This document shows, one piece after another, positions 9,742-26,873 of a stretch of DNA of 64,000 nt. Below the pieces are notes generated by a model that saw only the letters and a program-made list of their open reading frames with translations, had not been told where the DNA came from and did no database searches. Position 1 is the first letter of the stretch. Each line of letters starts with the position of its first letter. The stretch lies in assembly GCA_030754885.1 (NCBI GenBank), contig JASLZL010000021.1, positions 1-64,000 on the forward strand, in the 5' to 3' direction. Origin of the DNA: Rhodospirillales bacterium (GTDB lineage: Bacteria > Pseudomonadota > Alphaproteobacteria > Rhodospirillales > JASLLZ01). The position numbers and the translations under genes are program-made.

Positions 9742-9816
9742 GGGCGCGTAGCTCAGCGGGAGAGCGCTCGCCTCACACGCGAGAGGTCGCTGGTTCAATC
9801 CCAGCCGCGCCCACCA
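9742..9816 (+). tRNA. tRNA-Val (anticodon CAC)
   Basis: A full cloverleaf can be folded by eye. The acceptor stem GGGCGCG pairs with CGCGCCC, the D arm is GCTC/GAGC, the anticodon stem CTCGC pairs with GCGAG around the loop CTCACAC (anticodon CAC, reading GTG), and the T arm is GCTGG-TTCAATC-CCAGC. A discriminator A and an encoded CCA end the gene. The integrase 100 bases downstream suggests that its 3' end is the attachment site of the adjoining island. Confidence 0.96.
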
Positions 9817-9919
9817 TTTTAACCCTGGAGTATCAAGGGGTTATAGGCGGCTCCATCTTTCCAAAAACCATCGCAGACCAGACTGCTGCAACATTGGCAC
9901 AGTTAATGGGAGATTTGTG

Positions 9920-10903
9920 ATGGCTACCCTTCGCAAACGTGGAAGCAGATGGCACGTACAGGTCCGCCGCAAGGGATTTCCTTCAGTGAGCCGATCCTTC
10001 CAGTCGAAATCCAACGCCAAGGCCTGGGCACGAAACACGGAAGCCTCTATTGACCGCTACGACCTCCCCCGCAATTTTCGCTGTCTCGATACCCTTACCG
10101 TAGGCGACATTATCGAGCGATATCGCGATACGGTGACAATCAAGAAACGGGGCCGCAGGAACGAGATCATCATCCTCAATGCGCTAATTCGTCAACGCTT
10201 CGCAAGGTTGAGCCTGGCAGAAACTACACCCGACGTATTCAGCGCTTACCGGGATGCTCGCCTGCAGGTGGTTAAGCCGACCACGATCCGACGTGAGCTC
10301 TCCCTGCTGAAGCACGCCTTTGGGCTAGCTAAACGAGAATGGGGCATACCCTTGAAAGATAATCCGCTCGACGGGATCAGACGTCCTCCACCCGATCAGC
10401 CTCGGCAAAGACGTTTGAAAGATGGCGAACTGGCCCGTTTGCTTGAGGGATGCCAAAGGGGTCGGACGCTCCTACTTAGGCCCCTTGTCCAACTCGCAGT
10501 AGAGACCGGGATGCGACGGGGTGAACTTCTCAACATCCACTGGGAAGACATCAACTTCGAAAAACGGACACTTCGGATACCGATAACCAAGAATGGCCAT
10601 GCACGGACGATCCCTCTGACTTTGACAGCGATTTCAGTGTTGCGGGACCTTCCTCAGAATGGTGACGGCAGAGCCATTCCGACCACGGGCAACGCCATCC
10701 GATTGGCGTGGTGCCGCCTAACCAGGCGGGTAGGCATTGACGATCTCCACTTCCACGACCTACGACACGAAGCCATCAGCCGCTTCTTCGAGATGGGCCT
10801 GTCCGTGCCCGAGGTTGCCCTGATTTCGGGTCATCGGGATTACCGGATGTTGTTTCGGTATACGCATTTGAGGGCGGAGGATGTGGTGAAGAAACTCAAC
10901 TAG
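9920..10903 (+). CDS. Tyrosine-type site-specific integrase
   Basis: A 327-residue phage-type integrase that catalyses recombination between att sites. The C-terminal catalytic domain shows the full set of active-site residues: Arg in TGMRRGELL (about 199), HDLRH (His 279, Arg 282), SGHRDY (His 305) and the Tyr nucleophile in RYTHL (314). The N-terminal part has a basic arm (RKRGSRWHVQVRRKG) and a SAM-like core-binding region. I prefer ATG 9920 over the GTG three bases earlier, with GGGAGA upstream. It lies 100 bases after tRNA-Val in the same orientation, the usual arrangement for a tRNA-targeting island integrase. It appears intact. Confidence 0.93.
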   Translation: MATLRKRGSRWHVQVRRKGFPSVSRSFQSKSNAKAWARNTEASIDRYDLPRNFRCLDTLTVGDIIERYRDTVTIKKRGRRNEIIILNALIRQRFARLSLAETTPDVFSAYRDARLQVVKPTTIRRELSLLKHAFGLAKREWGIPLKDNPLDGIRRPPPDQPRQRRLKDGELARLLEGCQRGRTLLLRPLVQLAVETGMRRGELLNIHWEDINFEKRTLRIPITKNGHARTIPLTLTAISVLRDLPQNGDGRAIPTTGNAIRLAWCRLTRRVGIDDLHFHDLRHEAISRFFEMGLSVPEVALISGHRDYRMLFRYTHLRAEDVVKKLN

Positions 10904-10915
10904 CCCGGAGAATTC

Positions 10916-11566
10916 CTAATGTAAGGGGGATGGGTCCTCGACCCGGCCCATTGCCCCGAGACCAATCCGCCGAAGCTCTTTTGTTACGGCCATGATTGCG
11001 GTCAACATGGTCTCCACGTCCTTGGTGCTGAGCTCGATGATTTCACGGTAGTCGGCTATCGACATATCATCCTGATCCCGCTGCGGACCTTGAACACGTT
11101 CAGCCATTTCATCGGATCTGTCGGCAATATCCTTCAAACCGTCGAGAGCTTCTTCGAGGCTATTCGGAAGATTTTGATCCTCTCCGCTTCCAAAGAACCC
11201 CACCAGGAATCCGTCCCGTATTTCTTCCGCTCTCATGTGGAGAGCAGCCGTAACATCCTCCCATTCACGGAGCTTCTTCGGTTTTACCAACTTCACCACG
11301 ACACCGCCCTGATGCCGAGCCATGCGGTTCCACAAGCTCATCATTAGTTGGAAGAACTGTGAAGCCTCGTCCTCATTCTCAAACGTAGGGAAATTATCAC
11401 CCCAGAATGCATTGATCATTCTTGTGGGGCTTACACCAGGAATGAGACTGGCAATTCCACCCAGAAAACGCATCCGCACCACGTGGAACGGGGTTGGACA
11501 GTGGTATTTCTCCAGCAACTTTTGGAGAACTCGATCACCAGGATATTTTAGGTTCTGCCGTTTCAT
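10916..11566 (-). CDS. UPF0149-like hypothetical protein
   Basis: A 216-residue protein of unknown function. Residues of roughly 20-85 (MRFLGGIASLIPGVSP, AFWGDNFPTF, then ASQFFQLMMSLWNRMA) have the layout of the UPF0149/YecA fold: a hydrophobic helix, a conserved W-G with acidic loop, then an Asn-containing helix. The C-terminal SEC-C-type cysteines found in YecA are absent; instead the C-terminal half is acidic and helical (EEALDGLKDIADRSDEM). It converges with the integrase (12 bases apart) and diverges from the mini-MucR gene. Membership in UPF0149 is my pattern judgement, not a search result. Its role in the island is unknown. Confidence 0.7.
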   Translation of the reverse strand: MKRQNLKYPGDRVLQKLLEKYHCPTPFHVVRMRFLGGIASLIPGVSPTRMINAFWGDNFPTFENEDEASQFFQLMMSLWNRMARHQGGVVVKLVKPKKLREWEDVTAALHMRAEEIRDGFLVGFFGSGEDQNLPNSLEEALDGLKDIADRSDEMAERVQGPQRDQDDMSIADYREIIELSTKDVETMLTAIMAVTKELRRIGLGAMGRVEDPSPLH

Positions 11567-11640
11567 GCTTGTCGTAGCTTCGGGTGGTCGAACAGGTCAC
11601 CTTCAGTTATTTTACACGAATTGCATCGTAAGTGGGGACC

Positions 11641-11805
11641 ATGTCAGAGACACCTGAGACTCGCCTTCTCAAACTGACCGCCGTGATTGTGGCAGCCCAT
11701 GTCAGCAAGAACCCGACTTCCATCGACCAGCTATGCGATATGATTATGGATGCATTCGACAAAGAATACTTCGCAACCGTTCTGCGTGAGTGGGAACCTA
11801 AATGA
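11641..11805 (+). CDS. MucR/Ros N-terminal mini-protein
   Basis: A 54-residue ORF too short for the track. Its core (LLKLTAVIVAAHVSKNP, then IDQLCDMIMDAF) matches the N-terminal segment of MucR/Ros regulators, which mediates oligomerisation. The zinc-finger DNA-binding half that normally follows is entirely missing: the stop falls within an ATGA overlap with the next gene. A weak GGGGA precedes the ATG. The overlap implies translational coupling with the BglII-like nuclease, so it may control nuclease synthesis, bind the nuclease, or act as a dominant-negative partner of chromosomal MucR. It could also be a decayed regulator whose end became the nuclease start. The MucR similarity is strong; function is open. 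Confidence 0.7.
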   Translation: MSETPETRLLKLTAVIVAAHVSKNPTSIDQLCDMIMDAFDKEYFATVLREWEPK

Positions 11806-12305
11806 ACCACCAGGTCACCTATTTACACTGTGGAGAACATCTCAAAGGGACTTTGAAGAGCGAAATGGATGAGGTGGTCCATATCGTGGAACTAATAGAG
11901 TGGGAGAGAGAATTCAAAGTTGGCAAATCAGGCTCAACACTTCTTCATCAAACTGCCTACAACAAGAGATTTGAGGCGGAATTCAAGAAGTTGGGGTGGG
12001 AAACGAAACCGATGTTGAGTCAGAGACCTCGACTAATAGGGGATTTTCGGAAAAACCTGGTGTTTGTGGAGGTCCAATTTGGAAACAGCGCAACCCTTTA
12101 TCGAGATTTTTATAAATTTCAGTATGGTCTCCAGAATGGACTTCTTTCACTGAGTGTCTTAATCGTACCCATCAATCCGAAGGAGTTCTTTCCCACTCGA
12201 CCTCGAAGTGTCAGCAACATGGCAGAGTATGATTTGGCACTTCGATATTTTTCTGTTCTGCCAATTTCAGTCCCTACAATGGTCATTGGTTTGCTTGCGA
12301 GTTGA
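11802..12305 (+). CDS. BglII/BstYI-family type II restriction endonuclease-like protein
   Basis: A 167-residue protein whose centre and C-terminus match the BglII/BstYI endonuclease family: NKRFEAEFKKLGWE, then DFRKNLVFVEVQFGN, YKFQYGLQNGLLSLSVLIVP, and a C-terminal hydrophobic VPTMVIGL. The active site is readable as Asp81, Glu90 and Gln92, exactly the D-x8-E-x-Q spacing of BglII (Asp84, Glu93, Gln95). It is shorter than BglII (223 residues), and the loop that carries specificity may be reduced. It overlaps the mini-MucR gene by four bases (ATGA). No DNA methyltransferase lies in the island or window, so it is an orphan nuclease here. The target site cannot be predicted. Family assignment is by motif recall, quite sure. 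Confidence 0.82.
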   Translation: MNHQVTYLHCGEHLKGTLKSEMDEVVHIVELIEWEREFKVGKSGSTLLHQTAYNKRFEAEFKKLGWETKPMLSQRPRLIGDFRKNLVFVEVQFGNSATLYRDFYKFQYGLQNGLLSLSVLIVPINPKEFFPTRPRSVSNMAEYDLALRYFSVLPISVPTMVIGLLAS

Positions 12306-12367
12306 GGGATCCTGTTGCGAAGAGTATCCAACCTATGAATTGATCTTGGGCCATAGATGCGTTGGGG

Positions 12368-12559
12368 TCACCATGGTAACAATCTCCTCTGACTTTCTCT
12401 CGATTGCTTGGGCACGACGGTGTTAAGGCCGTCGTTGCCGCCGAACAGTTCGACCAGCACCACGGTCCGATCCCAGCGGGCGTCGCCGAGGGGTGAACGG
12501 AAAGGTATCAGCGCCATGGGAAGCGCGCCGGCAAGGCTCAAGAAATGGCGGCGGTTCAC
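12368..12559 (-). pseudogene. Truncated DUF1501 protein (N-terminus only)
   Basis: Starting at GTG 12559 with GGAGAG upstream, this reads VNRRHFLSLAGALPMALIP, a Tat-type leader, then VVLVELFGGNDGLNTVVP, which is nearly identical to the same region of the intact DUF1501 gene at 21385-22596. After that Pro (about base 12411) similarity stops abruptly and 14 unrelated codons run to a stop in island DNA. About 350 residues of the usual 400 are gone. The intact partner DUF1800 gene is directly upstream, so this was once a DUF1800-DUF1501 pair. The break marks the right edge of the tRNA-Val island. Confidence 0.85.
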
Positions 12560-12570
12560 GAACCCTCTCC

Positions 12571-13983
12571 TCACTTGAGTTGAAACGCCGGATCGAGCAA
12601 CAGGCGGCGCTGGCGTGCGTGAGGCCCCTCGCCCGCGATCACCGGCACCGCTGCCGGTAGCGGCAAAAGCAAAGGCGCCAACCGGCCCGCCGGGGCAATC
12701 GCCGTCTTTTCCGCGCTTTGCCACACGTCGAGCAGGAAGGCGTGGCGCGCCGGCAGTGTGGCCGAGGTGATCCACGTCGTCCCTCCCGGCCATCCTCTGA
12801 CGTTGGGCGGGTCGAGAACGTCCTGGCCGAGCCGGCGGTTGAACGACGCCAACCAGCCCCTGTCGTCGGACCTGAGCTGCAACAGGCGCAAGGTGCCGAC
12901 GCTCAGGTCGATCGGCGATTTAACGAGGACACCACGATTGGCGGCGGCGCGGAATTGGGGTGAATTCAGAAGGCCCCTCAACAGCGGTCCAAGGACATGG
13001 CTCGAACGGCGGAATTGGGTGGCCAGCCGGTCAACCTCGGTGGGCGCCGGGGAAGGGGAGACGAAGACGCGCCATAGCTTCTCTGTGATGTGTTTGGCGA
13101 CGCGCGGCTCGTCGAGCACGATGTCGATGATGTCGTCGCCGGTGAAGCGGCCCCGGCGCCCCATGAAGGTCTTAATGCCGCCGTCGTGCAGGTCGCTGGC
13201 GAAGGTAAAGCCGCCACTCTCGGGATCGATCCGCCAACCGGTGAAGGCGCGGGCCGCCTCGCGGATATCGCCCTCCGTATAGCCACGGCCTTCGCCGAAG
13301 GTGAACAGCTCAAGGAATTCGCGGGCGAAGTTCTCGTTCGGATTGCCGGCGCGATTGGTCTGACCGTCGAGATAGAGAAGCATGGCCGGCTGCTTGGCCA
13401 CTTGGCGCAGGAGGTCGGCGAAATTGCCCGCCGCGTGGCGCCGGAACGTAGCGTTCTGGCGGTAGATGTAGGCCGGCCACTTGACCTGGCGCAGGGACGA
13501 GGGAAGGTGGTTGTGCCAAAAGAGGACGAGGCGCTCGGTCAACGGCGAGGTGGTCTCCAGCATTTCGCCGAGCCACCATTCCCGAAGGTCGCGGCCGCGC
13601 TCTCTCCTTCGTGCCCGCAAGGCCCGCTGCTCTGCCGCCGAGAGTGCCGCCCAAGCGGCGGGTGGCGGCGGCCTTTCCCCGACCCAGGGCGGCGGCGGCG
13701 TCATCGGTTCCCGGCGCAGGCCGCCGAGCAGGCGGTCCACCGCCGCCGTGTGATCGAGGGGCATCAGGGCGGTGACGCTGTCGACACTTGGCGCGCCGAA
13801 CCCGGTGCGGCTCAACAGATGGCGCGCCTCATCGAAGGTCAGGGCGTGGGCCGGCCAGCCGAGGGCCAGGACGAGGGCGAGGGACGCCACGGCGGCAGGA
13901 CCGAGCACGGGAAATCCCCAGCCCGCCCTGCCGCGCCGGGCGCCCGTCCGGCGCCCAGCGATAGTGTTTTGCCCGGCGAACAC
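12571..13983 (-). CDS. DUF1800 family protein (copy 1)
   Basis: A 470-residue secreted or membrane-anchored DUF1800 protein. A hydrophobic leader (AAVASLALVLALGWPAHA) is followed by LTFDEARHLLSRTGFGA, the family's opening motif. Further conserved blocks are LVLFWHNHLPSS, NENFAREFLELFTFGEGRGY, ARAFTGWRI, DDIIDIVLDEP and a C-terminal PPNVRGWPGG. The function is not established; the family is found paired with DUF1501 proteins. The track start at 14133 runs into the upstream gene; GTG 13983 has a GAGGG motif upstream and gives the leader. It parallels the gene at 22608-23951, so the pair was duplicated. Its DUF1501 partner downstream is truncated, so this copy may now be without its partner. Confidence 0.88.
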   Translation of the reverse strand: MFAGQNTIAGRRTGARRGRAGWGFPVLGPAAVASLALVLALGWPAHALTFDEARHLLSRTGFGAPSVDSVTALMPLDHTAAVDRLLGGLRREPMTPPPPWVGERPPPPAAWAALSAAEQRALRARRRERGRDLREWWLGEMLETTSPLTERLVLFWHNHLPSSLRQVKWPAYIYRQNATFRRHAAGNFADLLRQVAKQPAMLLYLDGQTNRAGNPNENFAREFLELFTFGEGRGYTEGDIREAARAFTGWRIDPESGGFTFASDLHDGGIKTFMGRRGRFTGDDIIDIVLDEPRVAKHITEKLWRVFVSPSPAPTEVDRLATQFRRSSHVLGPLLRGLLNSPQFRAAANRGVLVKSPIDLSVGTLRLLQLRSDDRGWLASFNRRLGQDVLDPPNVRGWPGGTTWITSATLPARHAFLLDVWQSAEKTAIAPAGRLAPLLLPLPAAVPVIAGEGPHARQRRLLLDPAFQLK

Positions 13984-14006
13984 TAGGCCGCCCTCGCCGG
14001 GGCTTT

Positions 14007-14348
14007 TTATTTCCCTGCCGTGGCCACGATCTCGACTTGGAAGTCGTTGGCCAGGACCGCCTGGACGCAGGCGCGGGTCGGGCAGTTGTCGGGATCGACC
14101 CATTCCATCCACGCCTCCTGCATCTCCTCCCACTTATTCATGTCGGAGACATAGATCAGGGCGTTCAACAGCTTCGACTTGTCGGTACCGGCGGTGGCCA
14201 GATATTCGTCGATCTTGGCCAGAACCTGTTGGGTCTGGCCCTTCATGCCCTGGGTGATGTCGGGCGCCGTGCCGACGCACATCACCATTCCGTTGTACTC
14301 AACGATCTGGCTGCGGCCTGGGTTTCCGGGGGTGCGGGTAATAGTCAT
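14007..14348 (-). CDS. RidA family protein (copy 1)
   Basis: A 113-residue RidA/YjgF/UK114 protein. RidA enzymes hydrolyse reactive enamine/imine intermediates released by PLP enzymes and act as cytoplasmic trimers. The family pattern is readable, with GMKGQTQQVLAKIDEYLA, SKLLNALIYVSDM and the C-terminal CVQAVLANDFQVEIVA. The usual C-terminal Arg of canonical RidA (around R105) appears as the Thr-Arg-Ala-Cys segment (PTRACVQA), so imine deaminase activity is possible. ATG 14348 has a strong AAGGAGG ribosome binding site; the 23 extra track codons are discarded. It follows a paralogue 75 bases upstream, so the two are a tandem duplication. Confidence 0.9.
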   Translation of the reverse strand: MTITRTPGNPGRSQIVEYNGMVMCVGTAPDITQGMKGQTQQVLAKIDEYLATAGTDKSKLLNALIYVSDMNKWEEMQEAWMEWVDPDNCPTRACVQAVLANDFQVEIVATAGK

Positions 14349-21377: not shown

Positions 21378-21410
21378 ACCCGCCTCAGGCGATACAGCCC
21401 AACCCTTTTT
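21369..21410 (+). terminator. Rho-independent terminator
   Basis: AAGGGTTG pairs with CAACCCTT, with an inner CGCCTCAGGCG stem, and a T-run follows on the plus strand. It overlaps the stop codon of the hydroxyacid dehydrogenase and the 3' end of the convergent DUF1501 gene, so it probably ends the plus-strand transcript. Confidence 0.75.
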
Positions 21411-22596
21411 CCTTTATAAAGTCGGCCTTCAGGCCCCACCATTCGCGGGCCGCCGTGGCGTAGAGGCTGCGGAAATGGAGCCTGTGCTTCAGGTTGCGCG
21501 CGACCAGATCGTCGAGGGGCGGCTGTTCGCCGTAGAAGCCGCCCCGCACCCGCCCGCCCATCAGGAAATGGGGCGCGGACGTGCCGTGATCGGTGCCGTC
21601 GCTGTCGTTCTCCTTGGGGCGGCGTCCGAATTCCGAGTACGTCATCACAAGCACCCTGTCCCAGTGCCCCTTGGCTTTGACAGTCTGGACGAAGGCGGCT
21701 AGGCCGTTGGCGAGTGAGGCCAGGAGTTCCGGGTGGTCGACCGACTGGCCGGCGTGGGTGTCGAAGCCCTTGATCGCCGTCTTGATGACCGGCACCGGGG
21801 ACGAGCTGACTATCAGGCGGGAGGCGATTTCCATTTGCTGACCGAAGGCATCTTCGGGAAATTCGGTGCCCAGTTCGACGTCCTCAAGGTGTTTTTCAAG
21901 GATCACCCGGGCGGCGTGACGGGCATCGGTCTGCACCCCCGTCAGGTGGGCCAGGGCGGGGTTCTCCTCGGCCATGGGAAGTTTCCGCATGCGCTTCGCC
22001 ACCTTCAACAGATTGGGATTGTTGAGGACGGCCGTGCGTATGTTCTTGCCCTTGACCGGGCCGATGGCGTTGCGCCCCAACACAACTGCGTCGGCGGCGA
22101 ACTCGGCCGGCGGGCGGGCCTCGGCAAAGAGCCTGGATATCCACCCCTCGGAAAGGAATTCGTTGGATCCGGACGCGGTGTCCCAAATGTCGATGGAACG
22201 GAAGTGCGAGAAGTTGGGTCCGGGATAACCAACGCCGAGCGCCACTGCCATCTGGCAGCTTTTCCACAGCGGCAGCAGGGGCTCCAAAAGCGAATTGAAG
22301 CCCAGGCGTTCATCCAACTGGATGACGTTCTCGCGTGCCAGGGCCTTGGTTGGGCGCAGATCGTGGTAGTTGGCGTCGGAGTAGGGGACGACGGTATTGA
22401 GGCCGTCGTTGCCGCCGGCCAGCTCGACCAGTACTAGGACCTTGTTCCAACGCTCGGTGTCCTCGAATGTGGGGGCTTGGCAGGCCGGTACGATGGGAAC
22501 GTCGGAAAAGCGCATGGCCTCGGTCGAGCGGCAGGCGGCGGGGAGCATCAACAAAGGCAGGCCGGCGGCGCGGCGGAGAAACTGTCGGCGGTTCAC
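21385..22596 (-). CDS. DUF1501 family protein (intact copy)
   Basis: A 403-residue DUF1501 protein, a family in the alkaline phosphatase/sulfatase-like fold group with no settled function. The N-terminus NRRQFLRRAAGLPLLMLPAAC combines a twin-arginine motif with a lipobox-like Cys, so export by Tat, perhaps as a lipoprotein, is likely. Conserved blocks include VLVELAGGNDGLNTVVPY, LNNLG-type spacing and YSEFGRRPKEN, then DHGTSAPHFLMGG near the C-terminus. GTG 22596 is preferred over GTG 22611 because AAGGGGAG sits before it and the truncated copy starts the same way (GTG AAC CGC CGN). It is coupled to the DUF1800 gene directly upstream. Confidence 0.88.
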   Translation of the reverse strand: MNRRQFLRRAAGLPLLMLPAACRSTEAMRFSDVPIVPACQAPTFEDTERWNKVLVLVELAGGNDGLNTVVPYSDANYHDLRPTKALARENVIQLDERLGFNSLLEPLLPLWKSCQMAVALGVGYPGPNFSHFRSIDIWDTASGSNEFLSEGWISRLFAEARPPAEFAADAVVLGRNAIGPVKGKNIRTAVLNNPNLLKVAKRMRKLPMAEENPALAHLTGVQTDARHAARVILEKHLEDVELGTEFPEDAFGQQMEIASRLIVSSSPVPVIKTAIKGFDTHAGQSVDHPELLASLANGLAAFVQTVKAKGHWDRVLVMTYSEFGRRPKENDSDGTDHGTSAPHFLMGGRVRGGFYGEQPPLDDLVARNLKHRLHFRSLYATAAREWWGLKADFIKEKGLGCIA

Positions 22597-22607
22597 GGGG
22601 CTCCCCT

Positions 22608-23951
22608 TCACTTCAGTTGGAACGACGGGTCAAGCAGCAAGAGCGCCAGTCGTTGGCGGGAACGCGCCGTCTCCTCGGGCGGCGTCACCGGCGCGACGGC
22701 CAGCAACAATTCCATCAGGTCCTCGTCGCCGCCGTCGGGCATCGCCACATTCATCGTGCCGCCGCGCGCGACGCGGTTGAGGAACTGGTGGCGCAGCGGC
22801 AAGGTATTGGTGGTGACCCAGGCCTCGCCGCCCGGCCAGCCCTTGACGTTGGGCGGTTGGAACAGGTCCTGGCCCAGCCGACGCTGAAAGGATGTCACGT
22901 TGCGGGGTTCAAGGCCGGGGTTTCCCAGTACGCGCAGGGTGCCGACCACCAGATCGACCGGCGACTTGATCATGGTGCCCGGGTTGTCGGCGGCGCGGAA
23001 CTGGGGCGTTGTCAGCAGGCCTTTCATCAACGGGCGAAGTTCGTAGCCCGAATTGCGGAAGGCGGCGGCCAGGCGGCTTACCTGTCCCGGTTCGGGCTCG
23101 GCTGAGACGAACTCGCGCCACAGCTTTTCGGTAATGAACTCGGCGACGCGTGGTTCTTCGAGCAAGATATCGATGACATCGTCACCGCTGAACCGGCCCT
23201 GGCGCCCAAGGAAGGATTTGGTCCCGTCGTCGTGACGTTTGGGGTCAAAGACGAAGGTGCCCTTGGCGGGATTGATGGACCAGCCGGTAAAAGCCCGCGC
23301 CGCCTCGACAATGTCGTCTTCGGAGTAGCCCCGGCCCTCGCCCAAGGTGAAGAGCTCCATGATCTCACGGGCGAAGTTCTCATTCGGGCGGCCTTTGCGG
23401 TTGGTCCGTCCGTCCAGATAGATGAGCATGGCCGGCCCCTTGGCCATGCCGCGCAGCAGTGTGGCGAAGTTGCCCAGTGCGTGATGCCGAAAAAGGGCGT
23501 TCTGGCCGTACATATACCCGGCCCATTTGACCTTCTTGACCTCGGAAACGAAGTGGTTGTGCCAGAACACGACGAGGTGCTCGGTCAGGGGTGACGGGGT
23601 GGCCAACATCTCGCCCGCCCACCATTGCTTGAGCGGCTGCCACCGGGTGCGTGTGGCCTTGTTGAATTCCACACGTTGGGCCGCCGTCATCGCTTTCATT
23701 TCCTTGGAAGTCGGCGGCAACTCATCAATCCAGGGCGGCGGCGACGTTGCCGGTTGGGTGCGCACGCCGCCGAGTACGCGATCCACCGCCGCCTCGTAGT
23801 CGAGCTGTTGCAGGGCTGCAACTTCGGCGGCCCTGGCGATGCCGAATCCGGTGCGGGCCAAAAGGTGCCTGGCTTCTTCGAAGGGCACGGCGCCGGCCGG
23901 CAAGGCAAAAATCAGCGCGGCGAGGAATGAAACGACGCGGGTCTTACTCAT
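22608..23951 (-). CDS. DUF1800 family protein (copy 2)
   Basis: A 447-residue DUF1800 protein with a cleavable-looking signal peptide (VVSFLAALIFALPAGAVP) ahead of FEEARHLLARTGFG. The blocks shared with copy 1 are LVVFWHNHFVSE, NENFAREIMELFTLGEGRGY, ARAFTGWSI, DDVIDILLEEP, and PPNVKGWPGG. ATG 23951 has GGAGGGG just upstream. The downstream DUF1501 gene starts within its last codons or 12 bases later, depending on the start chosen. The DUF1800-DUF1501 pair is a recurrent combination in bacteria and suggests a joint extracytoplasmic function, which is not established. Confidence 0.9.
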   Translation of the reverse strand: MSKTRVVSFLAALIFALPAGAVPFEEARHLLARTGFGIARAAEVAALQQLDYEAAVDRVLGGVRTQPATSPPPWIDELPPTSKEMKAMTAAQRVEFNKATRTRWQPLKQWWAGEMLATPSPLTEHLVVFWHNHFVSEVKKVKWAGYMYGQNALFRHHALGNFATLLRGMAKGPAMLIYLDGRTNRKGRPNENFAREIMELFTLGEGRGYSEDDIVEAARAFTGWSINPAKGTFVFDPKRHDDGTKSFLGRQGRFSGDDVIDILLEEPRVAEFITEKLWREFVSAEPEPGQVSRLAAAFRNSGYELRPLMKGLLTTPQFRAADNPGTMIKSPVDLVVGTLRVLGNPGLEPRNVTSFQRRLGQDLFQPPNVKGWPGGEAWVTTNTLPLRHQFLNRVARGGTMNVAMPDGGDEDLMELLLAVAPVTPPEETARSRQRLALLLLDPSFQLK

Positions 23952-24056
23952 GGCCCCTCCGTGGTGAGGCGCGATCGAATGACCGGAACCCCTTTTCTGG
24001 CGAACCGGAGTTATTAAATATAATGTAGTGGACCGTGTCTAATGGAAGGATACCCC

Positions 24057-25094
24057 ATGACCGTTTCCAGCACGCGAGCCCGGAATCTTTGGTCGCGGGT
24101 CGCCATAGCGGTTTTGGCGTTTGGCGCCTTGGCGCCGGGCCTGGCGGCGGCGCAGGAAAAAGGACAAGAAGTCGAACTGTCCGACGTTCTTGGTGCCATG
24201 GTGATGGTGCGCTCCGAAGTCGCGGCCGACGCCCGCACGGCGGGAAGCCTGGGCACGCGACGCGTTGGCAGCGGCGTCGTCATCGATGCCGAAGGATTGG
24301 TGCTGACCATCGGTTGCCTCATCTTGGAGGCCGAGCGCACCGAGCTCGTCATCCCCAGCGGCGACGCGGTGGAGGCAACGGTCGTCGGTTACGATCACGA
24401 GACCGGCTTCGGCCTTGTTCGCGCCGTTCGGCCGCTGGCGATCAAACCCATGCGCATGGGGAACTCGTCCGATCTGGCGGCCGGCAACCCGGTGGTGGCG
24501 GTAAGCATCGGTCCGCGTCCCATCACGCCCGGCATCGTCGTCGCCAGGCGCCCATATGCCGGCTATTGGGAATACCTGCTTGAAGACGCCATCCTGACCA
24601 CGCCGCCCCATCCCCAGTTCGGTGGCGCCGCCCTGGTCGGTGTCGACGGCCGCCTGCTGGGCATCGGTTCGCTCTATATCAACGTTGCCGAGGAGGGCCA
24701 GGAACCTCTTCCCGGTAACATGTTTGTTCCCATCGATCGGCTCAAGCCGATCCTGGCCGATCTCATCGAGAGCGGCCGTTCGGTACAGCCGCAGCGCCCC
24801 TGGCTTGGGCTCAGCACCGCCGAGGCCGGCGGCCGCATCCTGGTGCGCCGGGTGTCCCCCGGTGGCCCTGCCGAGAAGGTCGGGCTCAAGGCCGGCGACG
24901 TCATCGTCGGCGTCGGCGGAAAACGGGTCGACGGCCTGGCCGATTTCCTGCGCAAGGTGTGGGGTCAGGGCGGTCCCGGCGCGGCCATTCCCCTCGACGT
25001 GCTGCACCTGGATACCGGCGATTTGGCCATCAAACGCTACGACGTGCCGTCGATCAGCCGCTACGACTGGCTGAAATTGAAGCGCGATCTATAA
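24057..25094 (+). CDS. Trypsin-like/PDZ protein lacking the catalytic triad
   Basis: A 345-residue exported protein built like a small DegP/HtrA protease: signal peptide (VAIAVLAFGALAPGLAAA), trypsin-like double barrel (GSGVVIDAEGLVLT...) and one C-terminal PDZ domain (GGPAEKVGLKAGDVIVGVGG). The active site is gone: the usual LTNAHVV is LTIGCLI (His to Cys), TDLALI is TGFGLV (Asp to Gly), and GNSGGAL is PQFGGAA (Ser to Phe). It should be a non-catalytic peptide-binding or scaffold protein in the periplasm. ATG 24057 has GGAAGG eight bases before it, and a TATAAT at 24019-24024 is a possible -10 box. It converges with the ClC gene. Confidence 0.88.
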   Translation: MTVSSTRARNLWSRVAIAVLAFGALAPGLAAAQEKGQEVELSDVLGAMVMVRSEVAADARTAGSLGTRRVGSGVVIDAEGLVLTIGCLILEAERTELVIPSGDAVEATVVGYDHETGFGLVRAVRPLAIKPMRMGNSSDLAAGNPVVAVSIGPRPITPGIVVARRPYAGYWEYLLEDAILTTPPHPQFGGAALVGVDGRLLGIGSLYINVAEEGQEPLPGNMFVPIDRLKPILADLIESGRSVQPQRPWLGLSTAEAGGRILVRRVSPGGPAEKVGLKAGDVIVGVGGKRVDGLADFLRKVWGQGGPGAAIPLDVLHLDTGDLAIKRYDVPSISRYDWLKLKRDL

Positions 25095-25097
25095 CCC

Positions 25098-26873
25098 TCA
25101 ATCGCCGCGTTCCTCGCGCCGGCTTTCGACCAGGGCCCGGTTGTAGGCGTTCATGACGTCCCGTTCGTGGACACAGCCCAAGTAGACCAAGGTGTCGGCG
25201 TCCTCGACCACGGCGATGTGGGGCTCGCCGGTGCTGCGGAACAGTTTGAGCGCCGTCTCAAGGTCGTCGCCGGCGGTCAAGGTCAAAGGCGTCAACCGAG
25301 CCACGTCACCGGCGTTGATCAAGGTGTCCACGGCGTGGTCGAAGGCCGCCTCACTAAGATCGGCCAGGGTAATGGTGCCGAACAAGTGGCCGCCTTCGTC
25401 GACGACGAAAAGCTGGCCCACCGCACTGGCTTGCAACTTGGCGCGTACGGTGGGCAGGTCCGTCTCCGGACGGACCACGCCGCTGTCGCGGGCCATTACC
25501 TGGCTGACGTCGCGGGCCCGCAACAGAGCCGATTCGAATCCTTCCTTGAGATCGTAGCCGCGCCGCTCCAACTGCTTGGCGAAAAACGACTGGCCATAGA
25601 AATTCTGTGTGATCACCGAGGCTACTACCACCGCCACCATGACAGCCATGGTCAGCGCGTAGTCGCCGGTCATCTCGAAAATGATCAAGGTTGTCGATAT
25701 GGGTGCCCCCAGCACCGCCGCCGCCACCGCCCCCATTCCGACGATGGTGTAGGCACCGGGTCCGGACGAATATTCCGGCAGCAACGCGGTGACGGCAAAC
25801 CCGTAGGCGCCGCCGAGCATGGCGCCGATGACCAGAGACGGGCTGAACACACCGCCGCCGAAGCGAAACCCCAGGCACACCGCCGTTGCCGCGACCTTGG
25901 CGAACAACAGCGCCACCAAAAGCCAGAACGGAAACACCACCTTGAGGGCCGCCTCGGTGGCGCCGTAGCCCACTCCCAGCACCTGGGGGAATGCAATGGC
26001 AAGCGCGCCCACCGCCAGGCCCGCTGCCGCCGGGCGCAGCCAGATCGGCAGGCCCGACCTTTCGGCCACGGTCGCCGCCAGACCGACGCTGCGCATGAAG
26101 GCGATGGCCGTGATCGCCGACGCCACTCCGAGACCAAGAAACGCGGCATATTCCCAGACCGAAGTAATTCCCGAATGAACGAGTGTGAAGGCCGGGAAAT
26201 CACCGAAATAGACCCGCGAGATAACCGTGCCGGTGACGCTGGCGATGACGATGGGGGCGAAAGCGCGGAGCGCGTAGTGCCCGACGACCACTTCGGTGGC
26301 GAACAGCGCCCCGGCGATGGGGGCGTTGAACGATGCCGCCACCGCGGCAGCGACGCCGCATCCAAGAAGGGTGCGTGAATTGGACCGGGTTAATTCGAGC
26401 CGGCCGGCCAGCCAGCCGCCGAAGGTGGCGCCCAGGTGCACTGCCGGCCCTTCGCGCCCGGCAGAGGCGCCAACGCCAAGCGAGACCGCGCTGATCAGGG
26501 CCGCCACCAAACCGGTTTTGGCCGACATACGTCCGCCGCGGAGCGCCGCCGCCTCAATCACGTCGGCCACCGCCTGGGGGCGCTGGCTGGGCATGAAGTG
26601 GCGCACCAGCAAGCCGACGATCAGCCCACCCGCGGCCGGCGCCAACAGGACCCGCCACCACGGCAGGTCTTGGACGTACAGGTACAAACGCTCGCTGCCG
26701 GTGGTGAAGAAGACTGTTTGAACCAGGCCGATGGCCTCGCGGAATCCAATGATTGCTCCGCCCGCGGCGGCACCGACGACGAACCCCAGGATCGACAAGG
26801 TAAGCTGGTCGTTTCGAATGATACGCCGAAGCCGCACATAGAGGCGGCCCAATCTGAACCGTCGTCGGGTCAT
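25098..26873 (-). CDS. ClC-family chloride channel/antiporter with CBS domains
   Basis: A 591-residue ClC transporter with about ten membrane segments. Visible signatures are GREGPAVHLGATFGG, carrying the gating glutamate, FNAPIAGALFATEVV, and GGGVFSPSLVIGAMLGGAYG. The C-terminal part (from about residue 450) carries two CBS domains (VMARDSGVVRPETDLPTVR; LINAGDVARLTPLTLT), which usually bind adenine nucleotides and regulate gating. The GSGIP selectivity motif of the best-known members is not obvious. It moves chloride or another anion, perhaps coupled to protons. It ends three bases from the convergent PDZ gene. Confidence 0.92.
   Translation of the reverse strand: MTRRRFRLGRLYVRLRRIIRNDQLTLSILGFVVGAAAGGAIIGFREAIGLVQTVFFTTGSERLYLYVQDLPWWRVLLAPAAGGLIVGLLVRHFMPSQRPQAVADVIEAAALRGGRMSAKTGLVAALISAVSLGVGASAGREGPAVHLGATFGGWLAGRLELTRSNSRTLLGCGVAAAVAASFNAPIAGALFATEVVVGHYALRAFAPIVIASVTGTVISRVYFGDFPAFTLVHSGITSVWEYAAFLGLGVASAITAIAFMRSVGLAATVAERSGLPIWLRPAAAGLAVGALAIAFPQVLGVGYGATEAALKVVFPFWLLVALLFAKVAATAVCLGFRFGGGVFSPSLVIGAMLGGAYGFAVTALLPEYSSGPGAYTIVGMGAVAAAVLGAPISTTLIIFEMTGDYALTMAVMVAVVVASVITQNFYGQSFFAKQLERRGYDLKEGFESALLRARDVSQVMARDSGVVRPETDLPTVRAKLQASAVGQLFVVDEGGHLFGTITLADLSEAAFDHAVDTLINAGDVARLTPLTLTAGDDLETALKLFRSTGEPHIAVVEDADTLVYLGCVHERDVMNAYNRALVESRREERGD

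Follow-up and report, generated by a model that had tools for sequence, protein, structure and literature searches.

The open reading frame at positions 24057 to 25094 of a 64,000-nucleotide stretch of Rhodospirillales DNA (hereafter the window) encodes a protein resembling the HtrA proteases, and an earlier note on this DNA proposed that all three of its catalytic residues had been replaced. The locus raises two questions: whether the protein has truly lost proteolysis and, if so, whether the gene is kept and what for.

An Intact Gene for an HtrA-Like Protein

The gene had been described as open, and its frame is indeed intact, running through 345 codons from the right start (Table 1). Two observations support the ATG at 24057: an RBS-like GGAAGG lies just 5′ of it (24044–24049), and a 91%-identical sister gene (L035) retains the same start. 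Residues 6–21 of the signal-like N terminus are helical in the AlphaFold2 model, at low pLDDT, and a crude regular-expression check found a signal-like N terminus in 99 of 126 family ORFs. Judged by its sequence, the product is probably an exported, periplasmic HtrA-like protein.

Pfam detected a Trypsin_2 domain (55 bits against a cut-off of 27.6) and one PDZ domain, with no other domain in the protein. The PDZ domain, which the earlier note took to be intact, exceeds the cut-offs of three Pfam models and retains the W-x-G loop and the GDVI strand. The AlphaFold2 model has a mean pLDDT of 91.7 over its full length; for the protease-like domain, the mean is 93.8. The best Foldseek matches in the PDB are DegP, DegQ, DegS, and mycobacterial HtrA. 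In the structural comparison with DegP and DegS that had been suggested, the protease-like domain alone matches their protease domains with a TM score of 0.77; the full-length comparison gives a TM score of ∼0.5 and a high rmsd, which is consistent with a different domain arrangement in the model. The predicted structure keeps the HtrA fold.

Table 1. Features of the pseudoprotease gene and of its surroundings in the window
Feature	Coordinates	Strand	Basis or remark
HtrA-like pseudoprotease ORF	24057..25094	+	Complete, 345 aa plus stop; ATG at 24057
N-terminal hydrophobic helix with Ala-rich end (LAAAQ), residues 1–32	24057..24152	+	Read as cleavable signal peptide
Chymotrypsin-like (Trypsin_2) domain, residues 41–239	24177..24773	+	Pfam PF13365
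Codon 87, TGC (Cys)	24315..24317	+	Catalytic His column (hhalign, MAFFT)
Codon 117 (Gly)	24405..24407	+	Catalytic Asp column (hhalign, MAFFT)
Family hallmark GYWEY, residues 169–173	24561..24575	+	G169, W171, E172, and Y173 invariant; not conserved in canonical HtrA
Codon 187 (Gln)	24615..24617	+	Oxyanion-hole Gly column, first G of GNSGG
Codon 189 (Gly)	24621..24623	+	Catalytic Ser column (hhalign, MAFFT)
Single PDZ domain, residues 249–317	24801..25007	+	PF13180, PF17820, and PF00595, all above cut-off
DUF1800 gene, divergent neighbor	22608..23951	−	Pfam
ClC-type channel gene with CBS domains, convergent neighbor	25098..26873	−	Pfam
DUF1501 gene and two DUF1800 genes, among them the divergent neighbor	12571–14133, 21385–22611, 22608–23951	All −	Pfam

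Loss of the Catalytic Residues Is Ancestral to a Clade

Catalytic positions were mapped by hhalign of 53 family members against six canonical HtrAs (Prob 99.9, E 3.7e-31), and MAFFT agrees with the result. The catalytic His is matched by Cys87 and the catalytic Asp by Gly117, both in agreement with the earlier note. Its replacement of Ser by Phe was one residue off: Phe188 pairs with the Asn that precedes the catalytic Ser (QF-G-GAAL against GN-S-GGAL), and the Ser column is occupied by Gly189. With this correction, the loss of all three catalytic residues holds; the features of a serine endopeptidase, the His-Asp-Ser triad and the oxyanion-hole Gly, are both absent from the window protein.

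We compared 124 aligned family members with 23 canonical HtrAs drawn from the same genome set. The catalytic His column holds Tyr in 123 of the 124 members, the single Cys being that of the window protein, and the catalytic Asp column holds Gly in every one. The catalytic Ser column is more varied (Gly in 81, Ser in 32, Ala in 10, and Val in 1), and the 32 members that carry Ser always lack the catalytic His and Asp. The oxyanion Gly is found in 9/124 family members vs. 23/23 canonical HtrAs, all 23 of which have His-Asp-Ser; there were no intermediates among these 124 and 23 sequences. Gly117 (invariant) and Tyr87 (99%) are among the most conserved columns, as strict as the structural glycines. 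The clade carries its own hallmarks, TIGYL in the His loop, TGFGL in the Asp loop, GYWEY, and GNMFVPID, all of which the window protein displays as TIGCL, TGFGL, GYWEY, and GNMFVPID. Its Cys87 is found in the window gene alone, and the sister codon is TAC (Tyr), a single base away from TGC; Cys87 may be a true substitution or an assembly error and is without meaning at the family level.

A tree of 55 family members and 23 canonical proteins, built by a quick method without bootstrap, splits the clade from canonical HtrA with an SH-aLRT of 100 and a branch length of 1.63 on either side of the drawn root; the window protein clusters with the L006 member inside the clade (SH-aLRT 100). Triad loss is ancestral to a pseudoprotease clade that is fully separate from canonical HtrA. 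The loss within the window gene itself that the earlier note implied is, therefore, wrong: the event is old and common to the whole clade. Its suggested orthologous group was found in part: a large group with degenerate catalytic positions exists, but the usual residues are Tyr-Gly-(Gly/Ser/Ala) rather than the same substitutions.

The earlier note had also raised an intact triad elsewhere in the protein as the finding that would speak against it. We looked for one and found none. The best-conserved His in the family alignment, His185, reaches 82%; with no His conserved throughout the clade, relocation of the Ser-His-Asp triad is ruled out at the family level. From their residues, the clade members are almost certainly noncatalytic as serine proteases. 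Some other hydrolytic activity might be built from the conserved residues Ser205, Glu172, Tyr173, Tyr87, and Arg69, the first three and Arg69 being invariant, but Ser205 pairs with a Thr or Ser that is present in canonical HtrAs as well, and the family has no invariant His or Lys to act as general base; we regard such an activity as highly improbable.

The Gene Is Under Purifying Selection

A protein departing from even its family's norm at the His position, with Cys in place of Tyr, could be the product of a decaying pseudogene. The open frame and the conserved start and RBS-like site speak against this, as does the NG86 comparison of one gene pair, the window gene and its 91%-identical sister, which gave a dN/dS of 0.15 (0.051/0.340). 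In the same comparison, the adjacent ClC gene also gave 0.15 (0.066/0.427). The window gene is under purifying selection equal in strength to that on its neighbor, and we rejected decay on dN/dS, giving it almost no credence. Elsewhere in the family, one member (G544:C22:285443-286387) contains an in-frame TAG, which may reflect recent pseudogenization or an error in sequencing.

The earlier note had argued for selection for a nonenzymatic periplasmic binding role. The nonenzymatic part and the maintenance by selection stand, given the loss of the triad and oxyanion Gly, the invariant replacements, and the dN/dS; specific binding is plausible.

Relation to Known HtrA Proteins

The window protein shares with canonical HtrA/Do proteins (DegP, DegQ, and DegS; MEROPS S1C, TIGR02037) the order of chymotrypsin-fold and PDZ domains, the predicted fold, and probable export to the periplasm. 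It differs from them in belonging to a clade with its own motifs that lacks the catalytic His and Asp, mostly has the Ser column replaced, and mostly lacks the oxyanion Gly. Moreover, it has one PDZ domain and falls far under the NCBIfam cut-offs, scoring 83.3 bits against 416.2 for TIGR02037 (Do) and missing the lower cut-offs for DegS and DegQ as well.

Two protease-dead relatives of HtrA have been described. MamO, a magnetosome protein of Magnetospirillum, is HtrA-derived but retains H116 and D149, with Thr as nucleophile, and has a TauE domain and a di-His metal site (PMC4794232). Like the window protein, it is an alphaproteobacterial protein with a substituted oxyanion position. The window protein, in contrast, has lost both His and Asp, ends in a PDZ domain rather than a TauE-like transporter domain, and has no magnetosome context. 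PflC, a Campylobacter flagellar medial-disk protein, is an HtrA homologue with two PDZ domains that has lost the His loop (PMC12222027); it too combines protease-like and PDZ domains without a triad and is noncatalytic, whereas the window protein has a single PDZ domain and a substituted His.

The MamO precedent (PMC4794232) makes it conceivable that the window protein binds metal, as His185 (82%) and His114 lie within the remodeled catalytic loops. However, the two occur together in only 49/124 members, neither is invariant, and the magnetosome setting is missing. The family sequence alignment shows no conserved His pair, and a di-His site is apparently not family-wide. We consider a metal-binding pseudoprotease very unlikely.

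Existing annotation does not distinguish the clade. Pfam and NCBIfam hold no model specific to it, and a literature search of limited scope returned MamO and PflC and no paper on the clade. Two tblastn matches with 46–50% identity (WP_227705700.1 and WP_262292264.1) are entered in RefSeq/PLSDB as "S1C family serine protease," one named family record is labeled "signal protein PDZ," and the Neorhizobium petrolearium locus (L133) falls within the clade in the tree. To judge from the conserved residues, the protease label is contradicted. The clade is an HtrA-derived pseudoprotease lineage separate from MamO and PflC and is unusually widespread.

Distribution and Co-Occurring HtrAs

Of 60 genomes sampled from the same order, 29 carry the family, as do about one-quarter (94/385) of alphaproteobacterial genomes. 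Many genomes have two copies, which then belong to two subgroups. A search with the window protein by tblastn matched one homologue in Azospirillum brasilense. Outside Alphaproteobacteria, two genomes of the same phylum carry the family, and it appears in metagenome-assembled genome (MAG) records labeled Binatia/Binatota, Nitrospinota, and delta-, beta-, and gammaproteobacterial, with the caveat that MAG labels can be wrong. Two complete alphaproteobacterial genomes of 1.2 Mb and 31% GC (G156 and G430; loci L170 and L171) each have just two Trypsin_2 genes, a canonical HtrA gene and a pseudoprotease gene. Within the taxonomic family of these streamlined genomes, the pseudoprotease was found in 4 of 118 genomes sampled; therefore, the gene has been retained in one lineage rather than being essential in general. 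At both levels, order and streamlined family, the distribution is patchy.

Canonical HtrAs accompany the pseudoprotease. The window genome has four Trypsin_2 genes, and the other three are full-strength HtrA-like genes with His-Asp-Ser intact; a canonical HtrA was also present in all 18 family-carrying genomes checked. This co-occurrence would suit a regulatory partner that joins or contacts trimers of active HtrA paralogs and tunes their activity, for which MamO, a promoter of MamE-dependent proteolysis (PMC4794232), offers a precedent. Nevertheless, Trypsin_2 proteins are near-universal (12/14 control genomes), so that co-occurrence tells little; MamO acts on MamE through its C-terminal TauE domain, which the window protein lacks; and the pseudoprotease and canonical HtrA genes of the window genome lie on different contigs. 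Such a partnership is possible, but we think it unlikely.

By analogy with PflC, a triad-less HtrA homologue that forms a scaffold lattice (PMC12222027), and given that HtrA folds oligomerize, the protein might instead be a structural scaffold of a multiprotein envelope machine. However, flagellar rod proteins were undetected in 10/32 family-carrying genomes, about one-third of the hosts checked, and the loci of the family encode no conserved machine alongside it. It is not a general flagellar part, and a flagellar role was rejected as its general function; a PflC-like scaffold seems improbable.

Gene Neighborhood

At many Rhodospirillales loci, genes for a UvrD-like helicase and PrmA lie on one side of the family gene and the ClC channel gene on the other. 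These flanking genes are housekeeping in Rhodospirillales, and the flanks are variable elsewhere. A consistent partner gene was sought among the neighbors of the family genes, and none was found, nor any functional thread. An association with DUF1800/DUF1501 genes was considered and rejected, as it is confined to the window, L026, and L122 and the adjacency is not conserved in the family.

Several local features were recorded in passing. In the window, the paired DUF1501 and DUF1800 genes share 4 bases and are transcribed divergently from the pseudoprotease gene, and L026 and L122 likewise have a DUF1800 gene next to the family gene. On Neorhizobium secondary replicons (L133:4288-4831 and L135:4194-4845), a gene for a DUF992-type small secreted protein is found directly upstream of the family gene; the DUF992 annotation is on the L133 gene, the L135 gene is alike in sequence, and both are Rhizobiaceae plasmid records. 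Elsewhere in the window, tRNA-Val(cac) (9742–9816) is followed by a tyrosine recombinase gene (9917–10903), and GC drops to 0.49–0.57 across 10–13 kb. Positions 9742–13000 are likely an integrative-element remnant; a second copy of the tRNA-Val end, of 12 nt or more, was not found within the window.

A Proposed Binding Role

The account that we favor, with moderate confidence overall, has two parts. The gene almost certainly specifies a protease-dead protein of an ancient HtrA-derived lineage, and this protein is probably secreted. In the periplasm, it would work through binding and not through cleavage. Its PDZ domain would hold envelope proteins by their exposed C termini or loops, and the remodeled cleft region (Tyr87, Trp171-Glu172-Tyr173, and Asn221) would form a fixed interaction surface. 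In this way it would serve as an adaptor, a holdase, or a scaffold and might modulate active HtrAs in its own cell. Binding of envelope proteins is argued because the PDZ domain is intact, the remodeled invariant residues presumably surround the former active site, and export is likely. The gene neighbors show no consistent partner and so lend the binding role no support, and the patchy distribution also counts against this account; we put a specific binding role at only slightly better than even.

HtrA pseudoproteases are already known as a kind, but this clade reaches far more taxa than MamO or PflC as described. One profile could correct the annotation of its members. On a bolder reading, which we hold to be less likely than not, the clade binds the termini of envelope proteins or controls active HtrAs in trans; periplasmic quality control would then include an unnoticed noncatalytic layer, present in about one-quarter of Alphaproteobacteria as well as in several further phyla. 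The clade lets one ask why the HtrA scaffold is kept when it is unable to cut.
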